Source: Clostridia bacterium (GTDB taxonomy: Bacteria; Bacillota; Clostridia; Oscillospirales; Acutalibacteraceae). From it: a stretch of DNA of 64,000 nt. How positions within the stretch are numbered: position 1 is the first letter of the stretch; each line of letters begins with the position of its first letter. The translations under genes and the position numbers were made by a program. The DNA lies in NCBI GenBank assembly GCA_017465505.1, contig JAFTWB010000023.1, positions 25,568 to 89,567 of the forward strand, given 5' to 3'. Below are positions 31,523-50,037 of this stretch, piece after piece. The notes below the pieces were generated by a model that saw nothing but the letters and a program-made list of their open reading frames with translations, was not told the origin of the DNA and searched no databases.

Positions 31523-31776
31523 AAAAAAACCTCCATAAATATTTTTTAGCATAGTTTTGCTATCATATTGATTATAGCTTTTTTTTAGTTTAAAAACAAT
31601 AAAAAACATTGCCAAATATCCCCTGCTTAATCTGGCATTTTGCACAATAAAATCTATATATTTTATAACAATTAGGCTTTTGTAAACGAAGAAATGAAAT
31701 TTGTCGCAAATAAATTGTAACAGACCTGAGAGTTTTCAATAGTATGTAGTGTAAACACGAAAGGAGGAAAATGAAA

Positions 31777-33184: not shown

Positions 33185-34912
33185 TCAGTCAGAAGTGAAT
33201 TTTTCAAGAGCACGTTTTTCTGCCTTGTACTTTTCAAAATCCTTGTCACGGATTTCAACTCTGCGGATTTTACCTGAGAAGGTTTTGGGCAGAGCCTCGA
33301 AATACTCAACAATTCGGGGGTATTTGTACGGAGCGGTATTCTGCTTAACGTACTGCTGAAGCTCCTCTGTAAGCTCATCGCTGGGAGTAAAGCCTTCACG
33401 GAGAACAAGGTTCGCCTTTACAATCTGGCCTCTTGTTTCGTGAGGATAAGCTGTAACTGCCGCCTCTAAAACAGCAGGGTGCTCAAGAAGAACACTCTCA
33501 ACCTCGAAAGGACCGATACGATAGCCCGAAGACTTGATAACATCGTCGTTTCTGCCTACATAGTGAAAATACCCTTGCTCATCTCTGTAAGCGGTGTCGC
33601 CTGTGTGATAATACCCTGCATACCATTTTTCCTTGGTGTCTTCCTTGCTCCAGTTGTAGTTGCACAGAAGACCTCTGGGTCTGGTTGCCATAGTTGGGGC
33701 TTTAATGCAGACCTCACCGGTAATACCCTGCTTGCACTCTTCGCCGTCCAAATCACGGACAGTAATGTTAAAGCCGGGTGCAGGCAGACCCATTGAGCCG
33801 GGTACAGGCTTGTTCCAGGGGTAGAATGTACCGATACAAACAGGAGTTTCGCTTTGTCCGAAACCTTCGTAAATTTCAAGCCCTGTAATTTCCTTCCACT
33901 TAAGGAAAACGTCAGAGGGCAAAGCCTCGCCTGCTGTACAGCAGTGCTGTATTGAAGAAAGGTCGTAAGAAGCAACATCCTCCTGAAGAATGAAGCGATA
34001 CATTGTGGGAGGAACGCAGAAGGTTGTAACCTTGTATTTTTCAAGAACGTGTAAAATGTCCTTGGGAACAAAACGCTCGAAATCGTAAACTAAAATTGCA
34101 GACTCACCAAACCACTGGCCGTAAAGCTTGCCCCATACAGACTTCATCCAGCCTGTGTCGGAAATTGTGAAGTGAAGTCCGCCGTCCACTACTCTGTGCC
34201 AAAAAACGCCTGTAGCGATATGACCAAGAGGATAAGAGAAATCGTGGACAATCATTTTGGGATAACCTGTTGTACCGGAAGAGAAGCACATCATCATAGG
34301 GTCGCTTGCCTTGGTGTTGGCTTTGCCTGTGGGACGAGTCCACTTGTCAGAGGCTTTTTCAAGCTCTTCTTCAAAGTCAATCCAATGCTCGCCTGCATTT
34401 TTGTGCCCTGTTACCATCTTAAGGCGTACATACTCGTATTCGCCCTCGCCCTCGTCGTAAATCTCGGTACATTTGCCGTGACCTGTGAGGATTACTGCAG
34501 AAATTCTGCCAACGTTGCAGCGGTAGATATACTCGCCTGTTTTGAGCATATCGTTTGCCTGAACAACAATAGCACCGATTTTGTGCATACCCAGTAAGGT
34601 TATCCAGAAAAGATAGCTACGTCTTAAAACAAGAAGAACTCTGTCGCCCTTTTTGATACCCAGCTTTTTAAGGCAGTTTGCCGCCTTATTTGACCAAAGC
34701 ATCATATCACGGAAAGTAAAACGCTTCTCGCTTCCGTCGTCAGCTACATAAAGAAGTGCCAGCTTGTCGGGTTTTTCCTCTGCAAGCTTGTCAATAACAT
34801 CATAAGCGAAGTTAAAGTCAGCCTTCCAGGTAAGCTTATAATTTTTACAGCAGTCTTCATAGGACTCAAAGGAGTCCCTGTCCCTGCCTAAATATTCTTC
34901 ATAAATTGCCAT
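33185..34912 (-). CDS. Acyl-CoA synthetase (AMP-forming), acetyl/medium-chain type
   Basis: 575 residues, full length for the family. ATP-binding motif FSSGTTGYPKMIVHD in the middle, adenylation motif YEGFGQSETP, hinge YHTGDTAYRDEQGYFHYVGR and the catalytic lysine region KTFSGKIRR near the C-terminus. It activates a carboxylic acid to its CoA ester via an acyl-adenylate. It is the last gene of an operon with a 2-oxoacid:ferredoxin oxidoreductase and a branched-chain aminotransferase, which suggests a short branched acid as substrate (inference). Confidence 0.92.
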   Translation of the reverse strand: MAIYEEYLGRDRDSFESYEDCCKNYKLTWKADFNFAYDVIDKLAEEKPDKLALLYVADDGSEKRFTFRDMMLWSNKAANCLKKLGIKKGDRVLLVLRRSYLFWITLLGMHKIGAIVVQANDMLKTGEYIYRCNVGRISAVILTGHGKCTEIYDEGEGEYEYVRLKMVTGHKNAGEHWIDFEEELEKASDKWTRPTGKANTKASDPMMMCFSSGTTGYPKMIVHDFSYPLGHIATGVFWHRVVDGGLHFTISDTGWMKSVWGKLYGQWFGESAILVYDFERFVPKDILHVLEKYKVTTFCVPPTMYRFILQEDVASYDLSSIQHCCTAGEALPSDVFLKWKEITGLEIYEGFGQSETPVCIGTFYPWNKPVPGSMGLPAPGFNITVRDLDGEECKQGITGEVCIKAPTMATRPRGLLCNYNWSKEDTKEKWYAGYYHTGDTAYRDEQGYFHYVGRNDDVIKSSGYRIGPFEVESVLLEHPAVLEAAVTAYPHETRGQIVKANLVLREGFTPSDELTEELQQYVKQNTAPYKYPRIVEYFEALPKTFSGKIRRVEIRDKDFEKYKAEKRALEKFTSD

Positions 34913-34927
34913 AAAAAATTCTCCGTT

Positions 34928-35479
34928 TTATTTGATAACTACTGCAAGGAACTTAAGAGGCTTGTCGCCAATTGCCTTGAAAGAGTGGGGCTTAGAGGAA
35001 TCGTAGTAAACACTGTCACCCTTTGAAAGCTCATAGGCGATGTCCTCGATGTAAAGTTTCATTGTACCTGAAAGAATGTAGTCAAACTCCTGACCCTCGT
35101 GAGAGTGCATAACGGGAACTTTGTTTGTAGGCTCAGTTGTGACAATCATAGGCTCTGCGTTTTTGTTGCGGAAGGTATAGGCAAGGTGCATATAGTTGTA
35201 GGACTGGTTACGCTTTACAACAATGCCCTGGTCCTTCTTAGTAACAACGCAGGTGGAAAGCTTGGGAGAATCACCGCTCATAATATCGACGACTTCCACG
35301 CCAAGTACATTTGCGGCGTTATAGAGGAAGCTGAAAGAATAGTCAAGCTGACCTTCTTCGTATTTACGGTACTCTTCGACGCTCATATCAAGCTTTTCAG
35401 CCATTTCTTCTGCGGTCACGCCACAGATATCTCTGAGTTCTTCAAGTCTTGTGCCGATTTCTTTTAACTGTTCGGTCAT
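34928..35479 (-). CDS. XRE-family regulator with C-terminal cupin
   Basis: 183 residues. Helix-turn-helix domain about 8-62 (VTAEEMAEKLDMSVEEYRKYEEG) and a cupin about 105-183 with HSHEGQEFDYILSG (metal-type histidines) and PHSF. Regulators of this design often sit beside acyl-CoA synthetase genes in Clostridia, as here (15 bases upstream of it); the cupin may bind a small-molecule effector such as a carboxylic acid. Probably regulates its own operon. Confidence 0.9.
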   Translation of the reverse strand: MTEQLKEIGTRLEELRDICGVTAEEMAEKLDMSVEEYRKYEEGQLDYSFSFLYNAANVLGVEVVDIMSGDSPKLSTCVVTKKDQGIVVKRNQSYNYMHLAYTFRNKNAEPMIVTTEPTNKVPVMHSHEGQEFDYILSGTMKLYIEDIAYELSKGDSVYYDSSKPHSFKAIGDKPLKFLAVVIK

Positions 35480-35524: not shown

Positions 35525-36064
35525 TTAACCCTCGTAGTTAAAGCCCAGCTCAAGGGCTTTTCTGTTGGATTCAATAAGGTGCTGCTTTGAAGCAGGAACA
35601 ACCTTCTGAAGTGCTCTCTCGATGTTCTCAAAAGGAATCACGTTTGTGTGCTTGATAACAAAACCGAGAAGAATCATATTTGCAAGACCTGAGAGGCCTT
35701 CATCACTTGCAAGCTTTGTAGCAGGGATATAGTAAGCCTCAACGTCAGTACGGTTTACTTTTCTGCCGATAAGAGCAGAGTCAACGAAAATCTTGCCGCC
35801 CTTAACTGTTGCGTCCTCGTACTTGTCAAGAGAAGGAAGGTTCATAACAAGAAGTGTATCGGGATTTGCAACAATGGGAGAACCAACGGGAGTGTCGGAA
35901 AGAATAACAGAGCAGTTAGCTGTACCGCCACGCATTTCAGGGCCGTAAGAAGGAAGCCAGCTTACCTCTCTGCCCTCTAAAAGACCTTCGTATGCAAGGA
36001 ACTTTCCTGTAAAAAGGATACCCTGACCGCCGAAGCCTGCAATAAGCATATTTGTAGTAGTCAT
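35525..36064 (-). CDS. 2-oxoacid:ferredoxin oxidoreductase, gamma subunit
   Basis: 179 residues. GFGGQGILFTGKFLAYEG and PSYGPEMRGGTANCSV are the typical gamma-domain motifs of the PFOR superfamily. It belongs to a four-gene VOR/KOR-type enzyme with separate delta (ferredoxin), alpha and beta subunits; the start shares one base with the beta stop codon (TAATG). Confidence 0.93.
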   Translation of the reverse strand: MTTTNMLIAGFGGQGILFTGKFLAYEGLLEGREVSWLPSYGPEMRGGTANCSVILSDTPVGSPIVANPDTLLVMNLPSLDKYEDATVKGGKIFVDSALIGRKVNRTDVEAYYIPATKLASDEGLSGLANMILLGFVIKHTNVIPFENIERALQKVVPASKQHLIESNRKALELGFNYEG

Positions 36065-36819
36065 TACTTAGTTTCCTCCTCTGCGAATTTATCCTTGTAT
36101 ACGCCCAAGGGATAGTAAGGAATCATATTTTCCTCTAACCACTTGAGAGCATTGGGAGGAGTAAGACCCCAGTTTGTGGGACAAGTGGAAAGAACCTCAA
36201 TAAGTGTGAAGCCCTTGCCCTCAGTCTGATATGTAAAAGCTTTCTTAATAGCCTTTTTAGCTGCTTTAACGTTCTTTACGTTGTTAACTGCAACACGCTC
36301 AAGATAAGTAGCACCGTCTACGTTGGAGAGAAGCTCACAAACCTTTAAGGGGAAACCAACTGTGTTTGTATCTCTGCCGTAGGGAGATGTCTGAGTAACC
36401 TGACCGGGAAGAGTTGTGGGAGCCATCTGGCCGCCTGTCATACCGTAAATTGCGTTATTAACGAAGATAATTGTGATGTTCTCGCCTCTTGCTGCAGAGT
36501 GAACTGTTTCAGCAGTACCGATAGCAGCAAGGTCACCATCACCCTGATATGTAAATACGATGTTCTCGGGGTTAGCACGTTTAACGCCTGTTGCAACAGC
36601 AGGAGCTCTGCCGTGAGCAGCCTGAACCATATCAACATCAAAATAATCGTAGGACATAACTGAGCAACCAACGGAGGCAATACCTACTGTTTTACCCTGA
36701 ATACCCAGTTCATCAAGAACCTCGGCAACAAGGCGGTGAATAATACCGTGAGTACAGCCGGGGCAATAATGAAGAGTAGCGTCTGTTAATGCCTTGGGCT
36801 TCTGGAATACAACTGCCAT
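36064..36819 (-). CDS. 2-oxoacid:ferredoxin oxidoreductase, beta (thiamine diphosphate) subunit
   Basis: 251 residues. YCPGCTHGIIHRL at 17-29, and the thiamine-diphosphate site GDGDLAAIG followed by NNAIYGMTGGQ. Binds ThDP and, with the ferredoxin subunit, passes electrons from the 2-oxoacid. One-base overlap with the alpha gene (TAATG). Confidence 0.94.
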   Translation of the reverse strand: MAVVFQKPKALTDATLHYCPGCTHGIIHRLVAEVLDELGIQGKTVGIASVGCSVMSYDYFDVDMVQAAHGRAPAVATGVKRANPENIVFTYQGDGDLAAIGTAETVHSAARGENITIIFVNNAIYGMTGGQMAPTTLPGQVTQTSPYGRDTNTVGFPLKVCELLSNVDGATYLERVAVNNVKNVKAAKKAIKKAFTYQTEGKGFTLIEVLSTCPTNWGLTPPNALKWLEENMIPYYPLGVYKDKFAEEETK

Positions 36820-37880
36820 TATTTATTACCTCCTACTGCTTCTTCAATCTTAGCCAGAACCTCTTCAGGTGTCATAATCATACCACCTGTGCGGTTGCAG
36901 AGGTAGCAGGGCTTTGTGCATTCTGTGTAAAGCTTAACGTCCTCAATAAGCTGACCCATAGAAAGCTCAACGCTGATGAAAGAGTTAACCTTGTCAGCGA
37001 TTGCTCTGATTTCCTTCTTTGGGAAAGGCCAGAGGGTAATGGGTCTGAACATACCAACCTTGATACCCTTTGCACGAGCGGCGTCAATAGCGTTCTTTGC
37101 AATTCTTGCAGAGATACCGTAAGCAACAACGCAAACCTCTGCGTCGTCCATAAGGAACTCCTCGTACATAGCTTCGTTTTCTTCGATGTAAGCGTAACGC
37201 TCAAAACGCTCGAAGTTCTTCTGCTCAAGAAGCTCGGGCTTTAAGAAGAGGGAGTTAACGATGTTGTGCTCTCTCTCGCAATTTGTGCCTGTAACAGCCC
37301 AGGGCTTTTCGTAGGTCTTAACCTCGCCCATATCAAGGCTTACAGGCTCCATCATCTGACCCATTGTACCGTCAGCAAGAAGCATAACTGTCATTCTGTA
37401 CTTGTCAGCCATATCAAAGCCCTGGAAAGTAAGGTTAACCATTTCCTGAACTGAGTTGGGAGCAAGAACAATCATATGGTAGTCACCGTGAGAAGTACCA
37501 CGGGTAGCCTGGAAGTAGTCTGCCTGAGAGGGCTGGATACCGCCAAGACCGGGGCCGCCACGCTGAACGTTAACAACAAATGCGGGAAGGTCGCAACCTG
37601 CAAGGTAAGAAAGACCCTCGCCCTTAAGTGAGATACCGGGGCTGGAAGAAGAAGTCATAGCTCTCTTGCCTGCTGAAGCTACGCCAATAACCATATTGAT
37701 AGCAGAAATTTCACTTTCTGCCTGTAAGAATGTACCGCCAACCTTGGGCATACGCTTGCTCATATAAGCGGCGATTTCTGTCTGGGGTGTAATGGGATAA
37801 CCGAGGTAGTGACGGCAGCCTGCCATAATGGCGGCCTCAGCCATAGCCTCGTTACCTTTCATCAATACTTTATCTGCCAT
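36819..37880 (-). CDS. 2-oxoacid:ferredoxin oxidoreductase, alpha subunit (VorB-like)
   Basis: 353 residues with the N-terminal KGNEAMAEAAIMAGCRHYLGYPITPQTEI segment of VOR/KOR alpha subunits, SSPGISLKGEG, and the QRGGPGLG motif. Length and gene order (delta, alpha, beta, gamma) fit the branched-chain (VOR, 3-methyl-2-oxobutanoate) or 2-oxoglutarate (KOR) enzymes; context with ilvE favours branched-chain 2-oxoacids. The reaction is reversible with low-potential ferredoxin. Confidence 0.93.
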   Translation of the reverse strand: MADKVLMKGNEAMAEAAIMAGCRHYLGYPITPQTEIAAYMSKRMPKVGGTFLQAESEISAINMVIGVASAGKRAMTSSSSPGISLKGEGLSYLAGCDLPAFVVNVQRGGPGLGGIQPSQADYFQATRGTSHGDYHMIVLAPNSVQEMVNLTFQGFDMADKYRMTVMLLADGTMGQMMEPVSLDMGEVKTYEKPWAVTGTNCEREHNIVNSLFLKPELLEQKNFERFERYAYIEENEAMYEEFLMDDAEVCVVAYGISARIAKNAIDAARAKGIKVGMFRPITLWPFPKKEIRAIADKVNSFISVELSMGQLIEDVKLYTECTKPCYLCNRTGGMIMTPEEVLAKIEEAVGGNK

Positions 37881-38152: not shown

Positions 38153-38824
38153 TTACCAGAAGTTTCGCTCTTGCAAAACTAAAGGCATAAGATTTTCGAT
38201 TTTGTCTTTTAACTGTTCATAAACAGGCTCAAAAACCGTTGTAAGCTTTAGGGGTAAGCCCAAACGGCGTGAAGCCTCGTTTGCATACTCAAGAGAGTCA
38301 AGCACCGCTTGAGCAGTGGTTTCTCTTCCGAGGTTTGAGTTGTTGACAATTGCGGTGAAAGGAATACCTGCCGCCGCTTCGATTTCTTCCTTGATTTCAA
38401 GGAGAGAGTCAACATCTTTTGTAAGAGGACGGTAGCAGTTGATTACAAGAAACATCTCGTAATCCTCAGCGATGATTCCTTCACGGAATCTACCCAGAGC
38501 ATAAGCGCCTCTGTCATCTCCGCCTACGTCACAAACTGCAAAGTCCTCTTTATTATCAATAATTGCGTATGCCTCTCCGGGCATTGCCGGAAAGTCTACG
38601 TTTGAGTTGGCAAATTCAGAGGAAATAACCCTGATTCCTGCATCACTGAGCTCTTTTTCGCTGTCTTTGGTGCGGTAGTAGGGATTGACGATATCAAGGT
38701 CGGCAATAACTACACCCTTGCCCGACTTTTTAAGGCTTAAGGCATAATTTACGGCGATGTTGGTTTTACCTGAGCCGTAGTGACCTGCAAAAAGGGTTAT
38801 TCTCTTAGGATTTTCTAAAATCAT
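38153..38824 (-). CDS. MinD/ParA-like P-loop ATPase of unknown role
   Basis: 223 residues. P-loop GHYGSGKTN at 14-22, DLDIVNPYYRT as the switch I region, and DVGGDDRGA as a switch II-like motif place it in the SIMIBI/MinD class. Close relatives are encoded next to 2-oxoacid:ferredoxin oxidoreductase genes in Clostridia (from memory). It might help load cofactors or iron-sulfur clusters, but nothing in the sequence proves that. Overlaps ilvE by 4 bases. Confidence 0.8.
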   Translation of the reverse strand: MILENPKRITLFAGHYGSGKTNIAVNYALSLKKSGKGVVIADLDIVNPYYRTKDSEKELSDAGIRVISSEFANSNVDFPAMPGEAYAIIDNKEDFAVCDVGGDDRGAYALGRFREGIIAEDYEMFLVINCYRPLTKDVDSLLEIKEEIEAAAGIPFTAIVNNSNLGRETTAQAVLDSLEYANEASRRLGLPLKLTTVFEPVYEQLKDKIENLMPLVLQERNFW

Positions 38825-39885
38825 ACATTCACAACCCAGCCGAATTTATCCTCAACCGTGCCGTTCTGGATACCTGTAACTGTGTCGTAAAGCTTCTGGC
38901 TGAGCTCGCCTGTTTCACCATTACCGATGGTCATAACTTCGTCCTTATAACGGAGCTTGCCAACGGGAGAAATAACAGCAGCTGTACCTGAGCCGAAGCA
39001 CTCCTCAAGCTTACCGGACTTCTGAGCTTCAATAAGCTCATCAACGGAAATCTTTCTCTCCTCTACCTCAAGACCCCACTCTTTGCAAAGTGTGATAACG
39101 GAGTTTCTTGTGATACCGGGAAGAATTGAACCTGAAAGTGCAGGAGTAACAACCTTGCCGTCAATCTTGAAGAAGATGTTCATTGCACCAACTTCTTCTA
39201 TGTACTTTCTCTCAACGCCGTCAAGCCAGAGAACCTGACTGTAGCCGCCGTCGTGAGCCTTAACCTGAGCAGCCAGAGAAGCAGCGTAGTTACCGCCTGT
39301 TTTTGCAAAGCCGATACCGCCCTTTACTGCTCTTACATAATCGTCCTCAATCCAGATACCAACAGGAGCAAGACCGCTCTCGTAGTAAGCACCACTGGGA
39401 GAAAGGATGATGATGAACATATATGTCTTTGAAGGAGCAACGCCTAAGAAGTCGTCAGTTGCGATGATAAAGGGACGGATGTAAAGAGATGTGGAGGGAG
39501 CTGTGGGAATCCAGTCCTCGTCAACCTTTACTACAGCCTTTACAGCCTCAACAAAGTCCTCAACAGGGAGCTCGGGGATACAAAGACGCTTGTTTGTGTC
39601 GTTTGTACGCTTACCGTTCATATCGGGACGGAAAAGACGAGCCTTGCCGTCATTACCGCGGTAAGCCTTAAGACCTTCGAACATTTCCTGGCCATAGTGG
39701 AAAACCATAGAAGCAGGAGAAAGCTCAAGGTTGTGGTAGGGCTCAATTCTGGGGTCGTGCCAGCCTTTGCCCTCTGTGTAATTCATAATAAACATATGGT
39801 CGGTAAAGATTTTACCGAAACCAAGCTTTGTTTCATCAGGCTTCTCTTTAGGAGTCTGAGTTCTGGTAATTTTAATATCCAGCAT
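38821..39885 (-). CDS. ilvE: Branched-chain amino acid aminotransferase
   Basis: 354 residues, class II BCAT. FEGLKAYRG at about 69-77, and the PLP lysine in LDGVERKYIEEVG (Lys about 229), GSGTAAVISPVG near the C-terminus. It interconverts Leu, Ile and Val with their 2-oxoacids using glutamate/2-oxoglutarate. First gene of the operon that continues into the ATPase, the oxidoreductase, the XRE regulator and the acyl-CoA synthetase, and it has its own promoter. Confidence 0.95.
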   Translation of the reverse strand: MLDIKITRTQTPKEKPDETKLGFGKIFTDHMFIMNYTEGKGWHDPRIEPYHNLELSPASMVFHYGQEMFEGLKAYRGNDGKARLFRPDMNGKRTNDTNKRLCIPELPVEDFVEAVKAVVKVDEDWIPTAPSTSLYIRPFIIATDDFLGVAPSKTYMFIIILSPSGAYYESGLAPVGIWIEDDYVRAVKGGIGFAKTGGNYAASLAAQVKAHDGGYSQVLWLDGVERKYIEEVGAMNIFFKIDGKVVTPALSGSILPGITRNSVITLCKEWGLEVEERKISVDELIEAQKSGKLEECFGSGTAAVISPVGKLRYKDEVMTIGNGETGELSQKLYDTVTGIQNGTVEDKFGWVVNV

Positions 39886-39960: not shown

Positions 39961-42480
39961 TTAAGCGGTTTCAATCTTGTCGGCTTTGGAAAGATTGTAC
40001 TTTTTAACAGCGTCCTCACGCATTTTGTACTTGAGGATTTTGCCTGCGGCATTCATTGGGAAGCCCTCTACAAAGTCAACATACTTGGGCACTTTGTGCT
40101 TTGCCATATGGTCAAGAACATACTGCTTAACATCTGCTTCTGTGAGGTTTTCGCCTTCCTTGAGAATAATGCAAGCCATAATCTCCTCACCGTACTGCTC
40201 ATCGGGCACACCAATAACCTGTACGTCGCTCACAGCAGGATGAGTATAGATAAACTCTTCGATTTCCTTGGGGTAGATATTTTCACCGCCACGGATAATC
40301 ATATCCTTGAGTCTGCCTGTAATGCGGTAGTTGCCGTCTTCTGTCTTGCAGGCAAGGTCACCTGTATGGAGCCAACCCTCTGCGTCAATGGCGTTGGAGG
40401 TTGCCTGAGGCATTTTGTAGTAGCCCTTCATAATGTTGTAGCCTCTTGCCACAAACTCACCTGTTTCGCCCACGGGCATTTCCTCGCCTGTTTCGGGGTC
40501 AACGATTTTACACTCAATCTGAGGCAAGGCTCTGCCGACTGTACCTACTCGAACCTCAAGAGGGTCGTTGGTGGAGCTCATTGTGCAACCGGGAGAAGCT
40601 TCTGTCTGACCGTAAACAATGGTGATTTCGCTCATATTCATTTTGTTGACAACATCCTGCATAACAGAAATAGGACAAGGCGAGCCTGCCATAATACCTG
40701 TACGGATGTAAGAAAAGTCGGTTTTCTCAAAGTCGGGGTGCTCCAAAAGAGCAATAAACATTGTGGGAACACCGTGGAAACAAGTGATTCTCTCGTTATT
40801 GATACAAGCAAGAGAGTTTTTGGGTGAGAAATAAGGAATGGGAGAAAGTGTGGCACCGTGAGTCATAGCGGCAGTCATAGAAAGCACCATACCGAAGCAA
40901 TGGAACATAGGCACCTGAATCATCATTCTGTCAGCGGTGGAAAGGTCCATTCTGTCGCCGATACACTTACCGTTATTTACGATATTATAGTGAGTAAGCA
41001 TTACACCCTTTGGAAAGCCTGTTGTACCCGAGGTGTACTGCATATTACATACGTCGTTGGGGTCAATGAGAGAAGCACGACGCTTAACCTCTTCAAGAGG
41101 AACTTTAGAGGCAAGACCCAAGGACTGCTCCCAAGTTAAACAGCCGGGCATAGAAAAGCCTACTGTAATAATGTTTCTGAGGAAAGGAAGCTTTCTTGCG
41201 TGTAAGGGCTCGCCGGGTTTTGTGGACTTAAGCTCGGGACAAAGCTCCTGCATAATACCTGCATAGTCGGAGTCACGGCAGTTTTCAATCATAACAAGGG
41301 TATGAGTGTCGGACTGACGGAAGAGGTACTCTGCCTCGTGGATTTTGTAGGCGGTGTTAACGGTAACAAGAACCGCACCGATTTTTGTGGTTGCCCAGAA
41401 GGTAACAAACCACTGAGGAACGTTTGTAGCCCAGACTGCAACCTTGTCGCCTGCCTTAACGCCTAAAGCAATAAGGGTACGGGCGAACTCGTCAACGTCA
41501 TCTCTGAACTGTGAGTATGTACGGGTGTAGTCAAGGGTTGTGTATCTGAAAGCATACTGGTCAGGGAAAAGGTCTGCCATTTTATCAAGAACCTGAGGAA
41601 AGGTTTTTGTAATAAGGGTTTCTTTCTCCCAGACATACTTACCTGTTTTTGTTTTATTGTCGTAGAGGGTTTCGGTAACTGTCTTTGCAGTTTCGAAACG
41701 GCTCATATAATTTACAAAATGAGGGAACACGATACCTGCGTCGCCGATTTCCTCAATCCATTCGCTACGCCATTCAAAAGAAATAAAGCCTTCGTAGTTA
41801 ATGGAGCGAAGAGATAACATCATTCTCTCTATAGGCATATCACCCTCGCCCATAAGACGGTATTCAAAGCCCTCATCGGTAGCGGCAGAATCCTTGATGT
41901 GAACGTGCTTAACATAAGCACCTAAGTTTGTGATTGTTGTTTCAGGGCTCTCACCTGCTCTGTAAGGATGGTTAAAATCCCACAGTGCTGAAACATTGTC
42001 GCAGGCAAAGCGGTTTAAAAGGTCAGAAAGACGCTTTGTGTCGGCATAAACGCCTACTGTTTCAACAAGGATTGTTACCTCGGTTTCCTCTGCAAAGTCC
42101 TTACAGGCAGCAAGAACACTTGCACAGGTGTCGTCTGTTTCGTCGCCGCCTTCTTCTCCTGCACGAAGTCTTACAAAAGGAACTGAGAGCTTCTTAGCAA
42201 GAGAAATGTGCTCGATAATTTCTGTAACATTATCATCAATTTTTTCTTTGTCGGAAATATCGCAAAGAACATTTATGCAGGGAATTGTAAGTCCCAGATT
42301 AGACATTTTTCTCACGGTTTTAGAAAGATTTTCCTGTCTTAAGGGAGCACTTCCGCTCTGGAAAGCCTGCTCACTTACATCGTGGATTTCAATACCTGCA
42401 AAGCCTAAGTCCTTTGCCATTGTATAGAAATCTTCCCAGGTAAAACCGCTCCAACCGTTGGTGGAAAAAGACAATTTCAT
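39961..42480 (-). CDS. Fusion protein: sugar-phosphate isomerase/epimerase-type TIM barrel + AMP-forming acyl-CoA synthetase
   Basis: 839 residues. Residues about 1-265 form an AP-endonuclease-2-like TIM barrel (KLSFSTNGWSG; LVETVGVYAD; LWDFNHPYRAG; HVHIKD; ISFEWRSEW) in which the usual metal ligands Glu, Asp/His, His and Glu appear conserved. Residues about 285-830 are a complete fatty-acyl-CoA synthetase with MQYTSGTTGFPKGVMLTH, VYGQTEAS, WLHTGDL and the late NAAGKILKYK. The frame is continuous, without a frameshift. It starts 3 bases after the LeuA-like gene, so it is under the same leucine T-box. Substrate unknown; a branched short-chain acid is my inference. Confidence 0.9.
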   Translation of the reverse strand: MKLSFSTNGWSGFTWEDFYTMAKDLGFAGIEIHDVSEQAFQSGSAPLRQENLSKTVRKMSNLGLTIPCINVLCDISDKEKIDDNVTEIIEHISLAKKLSVPFVRLRAGEEGGDETDDTCASVLAACKDFAEETEVTILVETVGVYADTKRLSDLLNRFACDNVSALWDFNHPYRAGESPETTITNLGAYVKHVHIKDSAATDEGFEYRLMGEGDMPIERMMLSLRSINYEGFISFEWRSEWIEEIGDAGIVFPHFVNYMSRFETAKTVTETLYDNKTKTGKYVWEKETLITKTFPQVLDKMADLFPDQYAFRYTTLDYTRTYSQFRDDVDEFARTLIALGVKAGDKVAVWATNVPQWFVTFWATTKIGAVLVTVNTAYKIHEAEYLFRQSDTHTLVMIENCRDSDYAGIMQELCPELKSTKPGEPLHARKLPFLRNIITVGFSMPGCLTWEQSLGLASKVPLEEVKRRASLIDPNDVCNMQYTSGTTGFPKGVMLTHYNIVNNGKCIGDRMDLSTADRMMIQVPMFHCFGMVLSMTAAMTHGATLSPIPYFSPKNSLACINNERITCFHGVPTMFIALLEHPDFEKTDFSYIRTGIMAGSPCPISVMQDVVNKMNMSEITIVYGQTEASPGCTMSSTNDPLEVRVGTVGRALPQIECKIVDPETGEEMPVGETGEFVARGYNIMKGYYKMPQATSNAIDAEGWLHTGDLACKTEDGNYRITGRLKDMIIRGGENIYPKEIEEFIYTHPAVSDVQVIGVPDEQYGEEIMACIILKEGENLTEADVKQYVLDHMAKHKVPKYVDFVEGFPMNAAGKILKYKMREDAVKKYNLSKADKIETA

Positions 42481-42483
42481 TTC

Positions 42484-43890
42484 TTAGTCCTCCTCGTAAA
42501 CGATTTTGTTAAGGGCGTTGAGGTAAGCCTTAATGCTGGCACCCATAATATCTGTGGAGATACCTCTGCCCGAATAGAGCACGCCGTCAAAGCGAAGCTT
42601 AATCAAAGCCTCACCCATAGCCTCTCTGCCCTCGGTAACAGCCTGAATCTGGAAGTCATCCAGCTCATAGTGACAGCCCACAATCTGCTCAAGAGCAAGA
42701 AGTGCGGCGTCAATAGGACCGTCGCCTGTGGAAAGGCCGCAAAGCTCCTCGCCTTTTTTATCCACAACAATGTGAGCTGTAGGAGCAATTACGTTACTGG
42801 AATTGATAACATAGCTTGTGAGCTTATATGTGGGAGGCACCTGTAAAGCTTCGGAGGCAACAATAGCCTCAAGCTCCTTGGCACCAACATCTTTTTTTGC
42901 GGCAGTGGAAAGAAAAGCCTCGTAAACCTTGGCGATATCGTCATCGCTCAAAGTATAGCCCAGCTCCTTTACAGCCTTGCTGATTTCGGAAATATCGCTG
43001 TCTTTGCTGATGGCAATGTTCTCGCCCTCGCCTATTTTGTTGTCAAAGGGAGTTGTGTCGCTTCTTCTGGTTTTTGCAATTGTCTTAATCTGAGCAGCAG
43101 TTCTTGAAAGCTCTGTTACATTAAGACCCACAAAAACGCCCATCTGCTCACCTCTTAAGCGGATAAGGTGAACAAAGCTCTCTGTGGAGTTGAGGTTTGT
43201 TTTGGAAACAGAGGTTTTGATATACTCTGCACCGCACTTGAAAGCAGAAACCGCACAGGCGTTTGCCATACCAAGCTCGTTGTATGCGGCAATGCCCAGC
43301 TGAGCGTCTTTAAGAGCAGGAACTGCTTCGTAAAGGTCTGCAATAAGAGCCTCAAGCTCATCGGGAACTGTGGCAGAAGCAGTGTCGCAAAGTGTAACCG
43401 CCTTTGCACCTGCCTCTAAAGCGGCGGCGACCGCCTTATGCAAAAAGTCTTTTTCGCTTCTTGTGGCGTCTTCTGCCTCAAACTCTACAAAGTCGCAAAG
43501 GCTACAGGCGTATGAAACCAGCTCCTTAATCTTCTCAAGCATTACTGCAGGCTTTGCGTGGCTGATGTACTCCATACACACGTTGGATGTGGGAAGATAA
43601 ACAATAAGACGCTTCTTCTTAGCACCTTTCACTGCACCTGCTGCTCTTTCAATCTGCTCTTTTGTAGAGCCGGCAACAACTGCAAGACTGGAGTTTTTAA
43701 GGAGAGAAGATAGAGTTTTTAGCAAGAGAGTATCTGTGGCAACATTTTCAATAGCTGCCATTTCAATTACGTCAACGCCAATTCTGTCAAGAAGCTTGGC
43801 AATCTCGATTTTTTCCTTGAAGCTTAAGGTTGCACCCTTGTGGGTTGTGCCTTCCCTTAAAGTTACGTCAGAAATTCTTACCTGTTTCAT
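42484..43890 (-). CDS. Divergent 2-isopropylmalate/citramalate synthase-like protein
   Basis: 468 residues from the ATG after AAGGAG; an upstream extension runs through the T-box and is not coding. N-terminal HMGL-like barrel (SDVTLREGTTHKG) and a C-terminal LeuA allosteric dimer domain (about 340-465, with DFQIQAVTEG and GRGISTDIMGAS). Two hallmark motifs are altered: the metal-binding H-x-H-N-D is IAAYNELG, and the GxGERxGN segment is replaced by SVSKTNLNST. It may be catalytically distinct or a regulatory paralogue. The Leu T-box in front ties it to leucine metabolism. Confidence 0.82.
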   Translation of the reverse strand: MKQVRISDVTLREGTTHKGATLSFKEKIEIAKLLDRIGVDVIEMAAIENVATDTLLLKTLSSLLKNSSLAVVAGSTKEQIERAAGAVKGAKKKRLIVYLPTSNVCMEYISHAKPAVMLEKIKELVSYACSLCDFVEFEAEDATRSEKDFLHKAVAAALEAGAKAVTLCDTASATVPDELEALIADLYEAVPALKDAQLGIAAYNELGMANACAVSAFKCGAEYIKTSVSKTNLNSTESFVHLIRLRGEQMGVFVGLNVTELSRTAAQIKTIAKTRRSDTTPFDNKIGEGENIAISKDSDISEISKAVKELGYTLSDDDIAKVYEAFLSTAAKKDVGAKELEAIVASEALQVPPTYKLTSYVINSSNVIAPTAHIVVDKKGEELCGLSTGDGPIDAALLALEQIVGCHYELDDFQIQAVTEGREAMGEALIKLRFDGVLYSGRGISTDIMGASIKAYLNALNKIVYEED

Positions 43891-43920: not shown

Positions 43921-44150
43921 ATGAAAACGCCCTGAAGCCAAAGCCTCAGGGACGATAATAAACCGCGGTACCACCCGGATTTGCCGCCTTATAAAAAGCG
44001 ACCACTTAAAGCCTGTAACGGGGCTGACCGTGTGTACTTAAAAATTTCGGCACACCTGCTCGGGAGTGAGAAGCAAGCCTTCTTCCCTGCCTGATTTCAG
44101 CTTACACAGGCTCTCTGTAAGGGCTTCGGAAAAGCTATTCTCCGTCGTTG
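43921..44150 (-). promoter_or_regulatory. Leucine-type T-box leader with terminator
   Basis: The T-box sequence GGGTGGTACCGCGG is at 43963-43976. Stem I shows the AGAGAG bulge and a GCTGAAA distal loop, and the specifier region reads CTC followed by ACTCCCGAG (CTC at 44068-44070), a leucine codon. The variable T-box base (T) matches A73 of tRNA-Leu. The terminator hairpin GCCTCAGGG-type stem pairs 43943-43951 with 43930-43938 and is followed by TTTTCATTTT. Uncharged tRNA-Leu would relieve termination of the LeuA-like and fusion genes. Confidence 0.92.
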
Positions 44151-44184
44151 CATTTAAGTTTGATTTATAAAATAAATTAGAATT

Positions 44185-45752: not shown

Positions 45753-48683
45753 TTAATCGTTTCTGTCAGCCGCTGCCGAAAGAAGGCTTCTAAGGCGGAT
45801 TCTGACCGCTCCCATATTGGAAATCTCATCGATTTTAAGCTGAGTATAGATTTTTCCGCTTTCTTCAATAATGGAGCGAGCCTCGTCGGTTGTAACGGCG
45901 TCAACACCGCAGCCAAAGGACACAAGCTGAACAAGATTAACCTTATGGCCTCTCTTATGCTCTGCCACAAACCTTGCGGCGGCATAAAGACGAGCGTGAT
46001 ATGTCCACTGGTTTCTCACGGTAACTTTAAACTTATCATAAAGATGACTTACACTGTCCTCAGTTATAACAACCGCACCCTCACCGCAAATAAGAGAGTC
46101 TATGCCGTGGTTGATTTCTGGGTCGATGTGATAGGGTCTTCCCGAAAGAACAATTACGGGCAAGTCCTCTTTCTCGGCAATTTCCAGATACTCCTCAGCC
46201 TTGCTTCTTACATCTGAGAGGAATTTGTAGTATGCCTCGTAAGCTTTGTCGCTTGCGGCTTTAATGGTTTTCTTGTCAAATTTTCTGAAGTGCTTTTCAA
46301 GGATAGGAGCAATATGCACCTCAAACTGCTTTTTGTCGTGAAGACCGATAAAGTCTGAGATAAACTTTGTTTTACTGATTGCACCAACATTTGACTTGAT
46401 AACCTGAGGATAATAGGCAACAACAGGACAGTTGAAGTGATTATCACCCAGCTTTTCGTCAAAGTTGTAGGTCATATCGGGATAGAAAACCGCGTCCACA
46501 CCCTCGTCAATAAGAGCCTCGATATGTCCGTGCATAAGCTTGGCAGGATAGCAGACAGTGTCCGAAGGAATTGTGTGCTGACCCTTAAGGTAAAGCTTGC
46601 GGTTTGACTTGGGTGAAACTTTGACATTAAAGCCCAAAGCAGAAAAGAAGGTTGCCCAGAAAGGCAGAAGCTCGTACATATTAAGCCCCAGAGGAAGTCC
46701 CACACTTTCCTTGCTTTCGTCAAAAGGAAGGTTGCGGTATTCATCAAGAAGCTTGTTTTTGTATTCGTAAAGATTGTAGGCAGCTGTGCCCTTAGCATTC
46801 TGCAAGGGCTTGTCGCACCTGTTACCTGCTATGTACTTCTCCCCTTCTCCAAAGGTGTTTACGGTAAGTCGGCAATGGTTTTCACAGCCGTGGCAGGTAA
46901 TTGCCTTTACACTATGCTTGAAATCCAGAAGCTCACTCAGAGAGATAAGCTTGGTTTCTCTTGGCTTTTTGCGGTATTTTTCAAGGCTGTAAAGTGCAGC
47001 ACCATAAGCACCCATAATAGCAGAATATGCAGGACGGATTACGTTTCTGCCGATTTCCTGCTCAAAAACTCTGAGCACGGCGTCACTTAAAAATGTACCA
47101 CCCTGAACTACAATGTTTTCGCCAAGGCTTTCTGCTCTTGCACATCTTATAACCTTATAAAGAGCGTTTTTAACCACACTGGTGGAAAGCCCTGCTGAGA
47201 TGTTCTCAACAGTTGCACCGTCTTTCTGAGCCTGCTTTACCGAGCTGTTCATAAACACAGTGCAGCGAGAGCCTAAATCAACAGGTCGGTCTGCATAAAG
47301 GCCCAGCTTTGCAAACTCTTCCACGTTATAGCCCAGAGCATTGGCAAAGGTTTGCAGGAAAGAGCCGCAGCCCGAAGAGCAGGCTTCGTTTAAGAAGATA
47401 TTATCAATTGAGCCGTTTCGGATTTTGAAGCATTTAATATCCTGACCGCCGATATCCAGAATAAAGTCAACATCGCTCTTGAACTTTTTGGCGGCAGTAT
47501 AATGGGCAATGGTTTCAACAATGCCGAAATCCACGTGGAAGGCACTTTTTATAATGTCCTCGCCATAGCCTGTTACGGCTGAGGAGTTGATTCTGATGTC
47601 AGGAAAATCCCTGAAAATTCCAATTAGATAATCCTTTATAACAGGAACCGGATTGCCGCTGTTGGAAGTATAAAAGGGTCGGAAAATGTCGCCCTTTTCT
47701 GAGCAAAGAACACATTTAACCGTAGTTGAGCCTGCGTCAATACCAAGGTACATTTCTTTTTCGGGCTCTTTAAGCTCTTTAATGCCCTCAGAGGCTTTTC
47801 TGTGTCGCTCCTTAAACTCTTTATACTCTTCTTCATTATTAAAAAGTCTGCGGCAGCTTGTGTAGCCGCCCTTTGCACTGTAATTTTCAATAACTTCAGA
47901 AAGCTCTTTGATGTTTTGCTCCTCTGCGGCAGAAGAGAAAGCCGCACCCAAGGCAACAAAATACAGAGAGTTTTTAGGCAAAGTGCCCTTAAGGGAAAGC
48001 ACATCGTCAAAGCTTTTTCTAAGCTCTGACATAAATGTGAGAGGGCCACCCAGATAAAGGATATTACCCTTGATTTCTCTGCCCTGAGCAAGACCGCCTA
48101 CAGTCTGGTTAACCACGGCATAGAAGATACTTGCACTGATGTCCTCTTTTCTTGCACCCTGATTTATAAGGGGCTGAACATCGGTTTTTGCAAAAACGCC
48201 GCAACGTGAAGCAATGGTATAAACCTTTTCTTTTTTCTCCGAAAGAACATTAAGCTCCTCGGGAGTAATGTTGAGAAGGCTTGCCATCTGGTCTATAAAA
48301 GCCCCTGTACCACCTGCACAGGTGCCGTTCATTCTTACCTCAAGACCACCTGAAAGGAAAAGGATTTTTGCGTCCTCTCCACCAAGCTCGATTACAACGT
48401 CGGTTTTGGGAGAAAGCTTTTTCACTGCATTTCTGGTGGCGTAAACCTCCTGCACAAAAGGAAGTCTGAGGTCGTTTGCCATACCCATACCTGCCGAGCC
48501 TGAAACGGCAATATACATTTTTTCGTCATTGGTGGCTTCGTAAACTTCAGCAAGAAGCTGAGCAGTCATTTCGGAAATTTTGGAAAAATGGCGTCTGTAT
48601 GTAGAAAAAACTATTTTATCATTTTCGTCCAGCACCACACACTTTACTGTGGTGGAGCCTACGTCAAGACCTATACGTTTCAT
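45753..48683 (-). CDS. Fused double 2-hydroxyacyl-CoA dehydratase activase-like protein with DUF2229 domain
   Basis: 976 residues. Two tandem BadF/BadG/HgdC ATPase domains (GLDVGSTTVKCVV at 4-16; GIDAGSTTVKCVL near 310), each with cysteines in the positions that bridge the [4Fe-4S] cluster of HgdC (CAGGTG and SRCGVF; CSSGCGS and SRCTVF). The C-terminal third is a DUF2229-type region with CHGCENHC and CYPAKLMHG. Such activases drive ATP-dependent one-electron reduction of a partner iron-sulfur protein; the partner is probably the gene immediately upstream (4-base overlap). The substrate of this widespread clostridial pair is not known to me. Confidence 0.88.
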   Translation of the reverse strand: MKRIGLDVGSTTVKCVVLDENDKIVFSTYRRHFSKISEMTAQLLAEVYEATNDEKMYIAVSGSAGMGMANDLRLPFVQEVYATRNAVKKLSPKTDVVIELGGEDAKILFLSGGLEVRMNGTCAGGTGAFIDQMASLLNITPEELNVLSEKKEKVYTIASRCGVFAKTDVQPLINQGARKEDISASIFYAVVNQTVGGLAQGREIKGNILYLGGPLTFMSELRKSFDDVLSLKGTLPKNSLYFVALGAAFSSAAEEQNIKELSEVIENYSAKGGYTSCRRLFNNEEEYKEFKERHRKASEGIKELKEPEKEMYLGIDAGSTTVKCVLCSEKGDIFRPFYTSNSGNPVPVIKDYLIGIFRDFPDIRINSSAVTGYGEDIIKSAFHVDFGIVETIAHYTAAKKFKSDVDFILDIGGQDIKCFKIRNGSIDNIFLNEACSSGCGSFLQTFANALGYNVEEFAKLGLYADRPVDLGSRCTVFMNSSVKQAQKDGATVENISAGLSTSVVKNALYKVIRCARAESLGENIVVQGGTFLSDAVLRVFEQEIGRNVIRPAYSAIMGAYGAALYSLEKYRKKPRETKLISLSELLDFKHSVKAITCHGCENHCRLTVNTFGEGEKYIAGNRCDKPLQNAKGTAAYNLYEYKNKLLDEYRNLPFDESKESVGLPLGLNMYELLPFWATFFSALGFNVKVSPKSNRKLYLKGQHTIPSDTVCYPAKLMHGHIEALIDEGVDAVFYPDMTYNFDEKLGDNHFNCPVVAYYPQVIKSNVGAISKTKFISDFIGLHDKKQFEVHIAPILEKHFRKFDKKTIKAASDKAYEAYYKFLSDVRSKAEEYLEIAEKEDLPVIVLSGRPYHIDPEINHGIDSLICGEGAVVITEDSVSHLYDKFKVTVRNQWTYHARLYAAARFVAEHKRGHKVNLVQLVSFGCGVDAVTTDEARSIIEESGKIYTQLKIDEISNMGAVRIRLRSLLSAAADRND

Positions 48684-49936
48684 AGGTTCATTTCCTCCTG
48701 AGCAACAGAAAGCATAAGCTTAATGCGGTTTTCCTGATTAACCTTTGAAGCACCTGCGTCAAAGTCTATGGGGAAAATATTGGCGTTGGGATAAATCTCA
48801 CGCATACTGCGGATTACTCCCTTGCCTACAATGTGATTGGGCAGGCAGCCGAAAGGCTGAGTACAGATAACGTTATTGTAGCCTTTCTCAATAAGCTCGG
48901 CAGTTTCCGCAGGAAGAAGCCAGCCCTCGCCCATTTTTACTCCTCGGTCTATTACCTTCTCACCCAGCTCTTTGATGTGAGCAAAAGGTGCAGGAGCTGT
49001 AAACTGGGGATATTTTTTGAGGACGTCAATCATAACCTCCTCAACCTTTGCGGCGGCAAATTCTGCAATTTTACCGCCCTGCTTGATAAACCAGTTTCCG
49101 CCGTAGTATTTATAGTCGGTTTCAATATTTGCAAAGCAATACTGGAAAAAGCCCAACACACCGGGCACCATATATTCAACACCCTGAGATTCAAGGAACT
49201 TTTCAAGTCCGTTGTTGCCGAAGGAAGAGAATTTAACATAAATTTCTCCCACAATACCAACCTTGATTTTTGGGGTTTTCTTGATTTCTATATCTGCAAA
49301 ATCCTTGGCTATGCCTTCAAGGTTTTCTCTGAATTTCTTTCTGGAAAGGCCTTTGCCGCGTTTAAACTGGCTGACGATTTCTCCCACCCATTTATCAAGG
49401 ACTTTACGGGTATCCCCTTTGTTGACCTCGTAAGGTGTGGTCTGGTTTTTGAGAAGCATAAGCATATCGCCGTAAATAATAGCCATAATGCACTTAAGCA
49501 TAAGAGGCAAGGTGAACTTAAAGCCCGAGTACTTTTCAATTCCCGTTAGGCTTAAGGAAATCACAGGGATATGCTCCCAGCCCATATTTTTCAGGGCTTT
49601 TCTGAGAAGCCAGATATAGTTGGAAGCTCTGCAACCGCCGCCTGTCTGAAACTGAATAAGAGCACACTTATCAGGGTCAAAGTCACCGCACTGAAGGGCA
49701 TAAATCTGCTGGCCTGTGGAGCATATAGCAGGATAGCACATATCGTTGTGCATATATTTAAGGCCTGTGTCGATAACCTCTTTACCCTCGTAGTGAGCTA
49801 CAAAAAGGTTATAGCCCTGCATTTTAAAAAGCTCCTGCAAAATCTCCATATGTGTAGGAAAAATATCGGGAGCAATAATTGTGTAGTCTTTTTTCATCTG
49901 CTTTGTAAAATCAACAGGTGGTTTCTTGCTTGGCAT
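48680..49936 (-). CDS. 2-hydroxyacyl-CoA dehydratase (HgdB-like) family protein
   Basis: 418 residues from the second ATG (MPSKKPPVDF), the better spaced from AAGGAAG. Cysteines at DMCYPAICSTGQQ, GGGCRASNYI and TQPFGCLPNHI fit the cluster-binding pattern of the HgdB/double-cubane superfamily. With the adjacent fused activase it would make an ATP-driven strong-reductant system. No CoA transferase or second dehydratase subunit is nearby, which argues against a classical amino-acid-fermenting dehydratase. Confidence 0.87.
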   Translation of the reverse strand: MPSKKPPVDFTKQMKKDYTIIAPDIFPTHMEILQELFKMQGYNLFVAHYEGKEVIDTGLKYMHNDMCYPAICSTGQQIYALQCGDFDPDKCALIQFQTGGGCRASNYIWLLRKALKNMGWEHIPVISLSLTGIEKYSGFKFTLPLMLKCIMAIIYGDMLMLLKNQTTPYEVNKGDTRKVLDKWVGEIVSQFKRGKGLSRKKFRENLEGIAKDFADIEIKKTPKIKVGIVGEIYVKFSSFGNNGLEKFLESQGVEYMVPGVLGFFQYCFANIETDYKYYGGNWFIKQGGKIAEFAAAKVEEVMIDVLKKYPQFTAPAPFAHIKELGEKVIDRGVKMGEGWLLPAETAELIEKGYNNVICTQPFGCLPNHIVGKGVIRSMREIYPNANIFPIDFDAGASKVNQENRIKLMLSVAQEEMNL

Positions 49937-50037
49937 AATCATCTTCCTTTAAATTGATTTCGACAAAATCTTACATATTATTATATTATACATAAATTCA
50001 AAGGGAAAACAATGAACAAACTTTTAACAATAAGAAA

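Follow-up and report, generated by a model that had tools for sequence, protein, structure and literature searches.

Leucine T-box leaders of leu/ilv operons are standard T-boxes with a CUC or CUG specifier, and leaders of this kind activate the genes behind them when the cognate tRNA carries no amino acid. Among the enzymes relevant here, AMP-forming ligases spend ATP to form coenzyme A (CoA) esters, and 2-oxoisovalerate oxidoreductases (VOR) are reversible and, given reduced ferredoxin, able to carboxylate acyl-CoA. To judge from titles cited in PMC7356843, work of the 1960s described branched short-chain acids as ruminococcal growth factors. The conversion of isovalerate to leucine in the rumen and in ruminococci has been known since the same decade, the acid being taken up, carboxylated and aminated according to the outline given there (PMC7356843, citing Allison 1962 and 1966). 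The ATP-dependent ligase MbcS of Staphylococcus aureus, as outlined in PMC10026030, takes branched short acids, preferring 2-methylbutyrate and isobutyrate and using isovalerate poorly, and feeds fatty acids. In this study, a leucine T-box was found which, unlike those of leu/ilv operons, precedes an operon that encodes a CoA ligase. It lies in a 64,000-nucleotide stretch (the window) of a Clostridia bacterium (GCA_017465505.1, contig JAFTWB010000023.1, positions 25,568 to 89,567), and the second gene behind it encodes a TIM barrel fused to an AMP-forming acyl-CoA ligase. This fusion probably acts as the acyl-CoA ligase for the leucine branch in a salvage route from branched short-chain acids to branched-chain amino acids. 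The object of interest is the leucine-wired pair that it forms with a preceding LeuA-like protein (pseudo-LeuA) in the proposed branched-acid salvage operon. What goes beyond the ruminococcal route as cited (Allison, Bryant and Doetsch 1962; Allison et al. 1966) is the specific gene set, the leucine T-box and the fused ligase proposed here. Among the titles and abstract openings returned by searches of an open-access library, none dealt with a barrel-ligase fusion, with T-box regulation of ligases of this sort or with a LeuA partner devoid of activity, a weak sign of novelty.

The fusion gene runs in one frame from an ATG at 42480 to 39961 on the minus strand, while the plus strand of this interval contains stops in frame 1; the continuous 839-residue frame reported in a preliminary description of the sequence was thus confirmed. 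In Pfam searches, the N-terminal part matched PF01261 (residues 22-240, 102.5 bits against a cut-off of 31.1), followed by PF00501 (residues 300-688, 310.9 bits) and PF13193 (residues 739-814, 69.3 bits), with the barrel extending from residue 1 to about 275 and the ligase from about 285 to 839. The P-loop YTSGTTGFPKG is identical in 81 of 81 sequences (the window and 80 relatives), and the commonest forms of the C-terminal lysine motif are N[AV]AGKI[LM]KY. The Glu/Asp/His/Glu positions that we take to be the metal ligands of the PF01261 family were read from the alignment as E140, D168, H194 and E236, a complete set, and the same description was also right that both halves of the window protein keep their active-site motifs. 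The AMP-binding and AMP-binding_C domains, the P-loop and the lysine motif mark the ligase half as a predicted AMP-forming acyl-CoA ligase of the ANL superfamily. Its best NCBIfam match is the fatty acid CoA ligase family PRK12583 / NF009233 (699.9 bits, residues 285-828), from which it differs in falling under the family cut-off of 832 and in carrying a barrel outside the match. The leucine T-box and the operon point to a putative identity as isovalerate-CoA ligase.

The best 80 of 595 confirmed candidate loci were taken as relatives, a set thereby biased to full matches, and all of them have barrel and ligase in one frame. The carriers include a cultured species, Anaerobacterium chartisolvens (L025). 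Of 118 genomes drawn evenly over the class, 59 had a match at E<=1e-90, which was a barrel with ligase in 49 (several interrupted by contig ends), a close ligase alone in nine and a distant ligase in one; eight match rows of this sample contain one stop within the matched stretch. The one-frame fusion in the 80 best loci and in 49 genomes rules out a sequencing or assembly artefact. The same domain order and a continuous frame therefore exist elsewhere, the halves are not separate in all relatives, and the view that these enzymes are not normally linked does not apply to Clostridia. Among 309 plasmid records searched, none had a single place covering 80% of the query.

The 31 of the 80 loci in which no LeuA-like gene was found are termed group A, and the other 49 together with the window, with a LeuA-like gene directly upstream of the fusion, group B. 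In a tree of 113 rows, one of them the outgroup, 53 group B rows and L048 formed one clade with a support of 99 in the Shimodaira-Hasegawa-like approximate likelihood ratio test (SH-aLRT); L048 had been counted in group A, yet its upstream DNA ends at base 198. Close group B clusters were also seen at L032 and L076, in one metagenome-assembled genome (MAG) assigned to Lentisphaeria and in another without a label, through transfer or binning error. Eight of the stand-alone ligases grouped together beside the fused ones (SH-aLRT 89 for one side and 90 for the other). The ninth, in genome G042 (71% identity), was nested in the fused clade and has no barrel in frame. A different PF01261 gene (L117 1452-2351, minus strand, 99.6 bits) lies 1.5 kb from it on the opposite strand; it adjoins a kinase-like gene, was not matched to the fusion by BLAST at 1e-10, and may be either a chance neighbour or a replacement. 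In genome G006, the ligase and a barrel with 38% identity to that of the fusion are separate adjacent genes of one leucine T-box operon. An amidohydrolase (L133 5884-6705, PF04909, 118.6 bits) directly follows the split barrel and could be a hint to the chemistry of the barrel. Because of these split neighbours behind a leucine T-box, and of the tree placement, the fusion probably arose by joining two genes of one leucine-controlled operon, although the direction of the event can only be inferred since the outgroup branch is long.

Behind the T-box of the window, the genes follow in the order pseudo-LeuA, fusion, branched-chain aminotransferase, small ATPase, VorB, VorA, VorC, XRE-cupin regulator and second ligase (Table 1). 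VorB exceeded its NCBIfam cut-off, and the A and C subunits matched Pfam models and missed those of NCBIfam; the second ligase did not reach the cut-off of MbcS, its nearest NCBIfam model. The likely start of pseudo-LeuA is the ATG at 43890, as the listed GTG at 43974 falls inside the T-box. Under the proposed route, a shortage of charged tRNA-Leu would permit transcription of the operon, and the ligase half would convert isovalerate, CoA and ATP to isovaleryl-CoA. VorABC, working reductively, would then use reduced ferredoxin and CO2 to form 2-oxoisocaproate, which the aminotransferase would turn into leucine. Sister ligases behind valine and isoleucine T-boxes would serve the same route from isobutyrate and 2-methylbutyrate. 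Pseudo-LeuA may restrain the ligase in response to leucine bound at its LeuA_dimer domain, and the barrel may likewise have a regulatory role. The activation of T-box genes in shortage argues for synthesis.

The leader of the window was confirmed as a leucine T-box by RF00230 at 111.5 bits with the specifier CUC, read as the three nucleotides that are followed, in the alignment, by an A and then by the 3' strand of the basal stem. Leucine control had been thought to make the combination of domains odder still; the operon context reverses this, since pseudo-LeuA and the pathway genes (aminotransferase, VorABC), both missing from the preliminary description, explain the leader. Upstream DNA of at least 350 bases was available for 75 relatives (five more were too short), and a core-motif scan located a T-box ahead of the fusion or of pseudo-LeuA in 52 of them. 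With the window included, 48 of 53 such T-boxes have a leucine specifier, 45 by script and three (L012, L014 and L079, all CUC) by Rfam alignments, the raw script having given Val for L014 and Trp for L079; the specifiers of L009, L016 (a raw script reading of Ser), L022, L063 and L075 are unsettled. At the Rfam gathering score, a T-box was found in 6/9 group A and 12/12 group B loci tried. Thirteen of 14 further fusion leaders of the sampled genomes read CUC by eye, and L109 was not covered. Among the nine stand-alone ligase loci, a core was present in two, the split G006 (L120) and the ligase-only G003 (L124), both with a leucine specifier.

Ligase paralogs occur in the same cluster in several relatives, and nine of them have a readable T-box, with a Val specifier in six, Ile in two and Leu in one. 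The Rfam alignments agree on Val for L010 and Ile for L024 and L060, and genome G041 has an additional Ile T-box ahead of its sister ligase. In a tree of 30 rows, five Val-labelled and two Ile-labelled ligases fell into separate forks with moderate support (88/68 and 91/96). The three codons would fit a scheme in which isobutyrate gives valine, 2-methylbutyrate isoleucine and isovalerate leucine, and this fit is the main argument for isovalerate as the substrate of the fusion. Since MbcS is described as using isovalerate poorly (PMC10026030), it would be reasonable for this acid to have a ligase of its own. In the five paralogs scanned (755-786 residues), an XRE-cupin regulator is fused ahead of the ligase (L010 1471-3768, L024 885-3233, L060 7278-9542, L081 1870-4227 and L065 6929-9193), with Val, Ile or Leu T-boxes ahead of those in L010, L024, L060 and L081. 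In the window, the regulator and ligase parts are separate genes. Such a fused protein is possibly an enzyme doubling as a transcription regulator.

The distribution of pathway genes is consistent with salvage. A VorB-like gene (E<=1e-60) was found in 46/49 fusion genomes versus 38/69 others (p=2.8e-6). IlvC, which is required for de novo synthesis of valine, leucine and isoleucine, was found in 17/49 versus 46/69 (p=7.5e-4), being present in 4/20 genomes with pseudo-LeuA and 13/29 with the fusion alone. Genome G041, which is 100% complete, gave no match for IlvC and none for TIGR00973 except pseudo-LeuA; its cluster reads ATPase, VorBAC, aminotransferase, pseudo-LeuA and fusion, besides the Ile T-box ligase. 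VorB lies in the examined DNA of 19/49 group B loci and 1/31 group A loci (L085), many contigs ending early, and beside two further fusions of the sampled genomes (L104 and L114). The small P-loop ATPase adjoins VorB in the clusters of many relatives.

Several observations weigh against the salvage route. The Fisher tests above ignore shared ancestry and MAG gaps, and group A fusions are mostly solitary genes. In the window genome, two T-boxes precede a leu/ilv cluster that looks complete (IlvC, the LeuA type and LeuC found by search, the rest by inspection of L144), and hence the route is not essential there, which speaks against explaining it simply by auxotrophy. These tandem T-boxes (L144 12077-12240 and 11805-12061, minus strand, outside the window) precede an ilvA-leu-ilv operon and read Leu CUC and then Ile AUC by alignment, both under the gathering score. 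T-box control in every relative is ruled out, as 23/75 have no core before the fusion or pseudo-LeuA. A looser pattern gave a single stray partial core among these 23 (L053), and Rfam at E<=1e-4 gave one weak T-box, in L068, among four of them tried (L018, L025, L028 and L068); two others, L013 and L081, have a leucine T-box further up the same cluster. The fusion operon of G041 itself lacks a T-box core in the DNA examined, and among the ligase-only loci, besides the split G006, only G003 has one. Finally, isovaleryl-CoA could serve instead as a primer of iso-fatty acids.

In that case, the ligase would make isovaleryl-CoA for branched membrane lipids, and a shortage of leucine would cut the usual source of the primer while the T-box turned on a ligase for acid taken up. 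The leucine T-box is compatible with this, as is the rarity of VOR beside group A fusions, and for other branched acids MbcS is described as supplying lipid synthesis in this way in S. aureus (PMC10026030). However, the aminotransferase and VorABC stand in the operon of the window, L008, L009, L072, L083 and L084, nearly all fusion genomes have VorB, and no fatty-acid synthesis protein was found among the ten window proteins scanned. A role in lipid synthesis is thus considered unlikely.

The partner directly upstream of the fusion resembles 2-isopropylmalate synthase (LeuA) in having an HMGL-like barrel and a LeuA_dimer domain, but not in its catalytic motifs, which we take to be RDG[EN]Q and HxHND. 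In the window protein these have become REGTT (from RDGEQ) and AAYNE, and neither RDG[EN]Q nor the histidine pair is kept in any of 67 pseudo-LeuA sequences (a first set of 48 and 19 more from the genome sample). L024 retains one histidine, the gapped first motif of L082 contains a D, and the rows of L056 and G079 are cut before that motif. RDG[EN]Q and the two histidines are intact in all five LeuA references, four from other genomes and one from the window genome, and the loss is also visible against solved LeuA chains. A gap at NGxGERAGN, present in all 67, is not diagnostic because the LeuA-type protein of the window genome shares it. A true 2-isopropylmalate synthase upstream of the fusion is ruled out by the loss of the motifs, and a dead pseudogene by ratios of nonsynonymous to synonymous substitution rates (dN/dS) of 0.05-0.28 across eight close pairs, the highest in the pair L032/L076.

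The PF08502 regulatory domain of pseudo-LeuA was matched above its cut-off (107.6 vs 24.9 bits). Over 48 rows, this LeuA_dimer domain has a mean identity of 65% vs 41% for the pseudo-LeuA barrel, whereas in four LeuA references the pattern is reversed (62% vs 72%); the better conservation fits retention of a putative leucine-binding part, and pseudo-LeuA is a candidate leucine sensor. It was present in 20 sampled genomes including that of the window, with 19 matches of at least 493 bits and one of 363 bits at a contig end (G079), and in 20/20 it lies 5-114 bases from the fusion. The next-best match (325 bits) was in G022, which has no fusion match, and the remaining 29 fusion genomes of the sample had no match at that level. 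A general role as regulator of true LeuA is unlikely, given that G041 has no other TIGR00973 match; regulation of the true LeuA-type protein is possible in the window genome, where such a gene exists.

The barrel of the fusion belongs to the same fold family (PF01261) as AsbF, fructoselysine 3-epimerase and IolI/IolE and has the metal set in the window. It differs from them in being fused to a ligase and in remaining far under every NCBIfam equivalog cut-off listed (49.6 vs 305, 34.8 vs 300, 26.7 vs 353 and 19.3 vs 290 bits), AsbF being matched only as a PDB sequence, and its NCBIfam and PDB sequence relatives gave no nameable substrate. The metal set is complete in 30/31 group A rows (the exception being L048) and in 30/50 group B rows including the window, at least one ligand being lost in the other 20. 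Mean identity is 63% in group A and 45% in group B for the barrel, and 81% and 79%, respectively, for the ligase. Eight pairs, some with lost ligands, gave a barrel dN/dS of 0.04-0.15, indicating purifying selection. An essential metal-dependent reaction is therefore unlikely in group B, where ligands were lost while the ligase stayed intact, yet the barrel must do something there, being still under purifying selection; enzymatic activity may persist in group A and the window.

The preliminary description had suggested substrate transfer or coupled function, for example the release of an acid from a sugar-derived or hydroxy compound ahead of CoA activation; the barrel would then produce the acid by isomerisation, epimerisation or dehydration and hand it to the ligase. 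The observation of the fusion in that description stands and the coupling of function that it implied is supported by the adjacent halves behind one leucine T-box in G006, but the hand-over of a substrate is weakly supported and, in our judgement, improbable. The intact metal set of the window and of nearly all group A rows, the low dN/dS and the arrangement in G006 would suit it, as would AsbF, the nearest solved sequence (57.5 bits), which is presumably an acid-yielding dehydratase. The lost ligands beside well-conserved ligases in group B argue against it, as do the equivalog scores, the ligase of G003, which stands behind a leucine T-box without a barrel, and that of G042, which lost its barrel, despite the PF01261 gene nearby. 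A tentative further reading, to which we give somewhat less than even credence, is that pseudo-LeuA is a leucine-sensing pseudoenzyme, recruited a single time as the allosteric subunit of the fusion, so that leucine on its LeuA_dimer domain would stop the activation of isovalerate, while the barrel, originally a metal enzyme next to the ligase, would be turning into a docking or sensing module and losing its metal site. The least probable reading is that the ligase serves the acid of another amino acid or that the operon runs the breakdown of leucine to isovalerate, for while the substrate is a prediction from the leucine T-box and the operon and VOR is reversible, the specifiers are overwhelmingly those of leucine, the ligase would spend ATP to make the CoA ester, and T-boxes act in shortage.

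Table 1. Positions of the operon and of other features in the window
Feature	Position	Strand	Evidence
T-box leader RNA RF00230, specifier CUC (Leu)	43945..44157	-	cmscan 111.5 bits vs 93 gathering
Pseudo-LeuA with LeuA_dimer domain (leucine-binding type)	42484..43890	-	PF00682 130 bits; PF08502 107.6 bits
TIM barrel and AMP-forming acyl-CoA ligase fusion, proposed isovalerate-CoA ligase	39961..42480	-	Pfam, NCBIfam, motifs
Branched-chain aminotransferase (IlvE II)	38821..39885	-	NF009897 513 bits vs 307; TIGR01123 421 vs 250
Small P-loop ATPase, CbiA/ParA-like, below cut-offs	38153..38824	-	PF01656 22.1 bits vs 25.4
VorB, 2-oxoisovalerate oxidoreductase subunit	36819..37880	-	NF005507 526 bits vs cut-off 399
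VorA/KorB-type thiamine pyrophosphate (TPP) subunit	36064..36819	-	PF02775 79 bits; NCBIfam models under cut-off
VorC/KorC-type gamma subunit	35525..36064	-	PF01558 130 bits; NCBIfam models under cut-off
XRE helix-turn-helix and cupin regulator	34928..35479	-	PF07883, PF13560, PF01381
Second AMP-forming ligase, nearest NCBIfam model MbcS	33185..34912	-	NF047394 411 bits vs cut-off 850
976-residue protein, two BadF/BcrA-type activase stretches and DUF2229	45753-48683		
420-residue partner of the 976-residue protein	48680-49942		weak DUF2229 match under cut-off
Secreted-looking starch protein	17268-19814		alpha-amylase domain 57.9 bits
Secreted-looking starch protein	28838-31645		CBM26 62.4 bits in 3 stretches; borderline dockerin 22.8 vs 22.9
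Secreted-looking starch protein with dockerin	58217-59980		dockerin 35.8 bits

The starch proteins elsewhere in the window are compatible with a starch-degrading Ruminococcus. If the proposed salvage route is correct, it would provide testable genes for the activation step of branched short-chain acids, and the T-box codon would be a code for which ligase takes which acid, so that genomes could predict which gut bacteria live on isovalerate, isobutyrate or 2-methylbutyrate. The salvage route would be governed by the same kind of sensor domain as the classical pathway, and pseudo-LeuA would be a clear example of a biosynthetic enzyme that was pared down to its feedback domain and joined to another pathway with the same end product.

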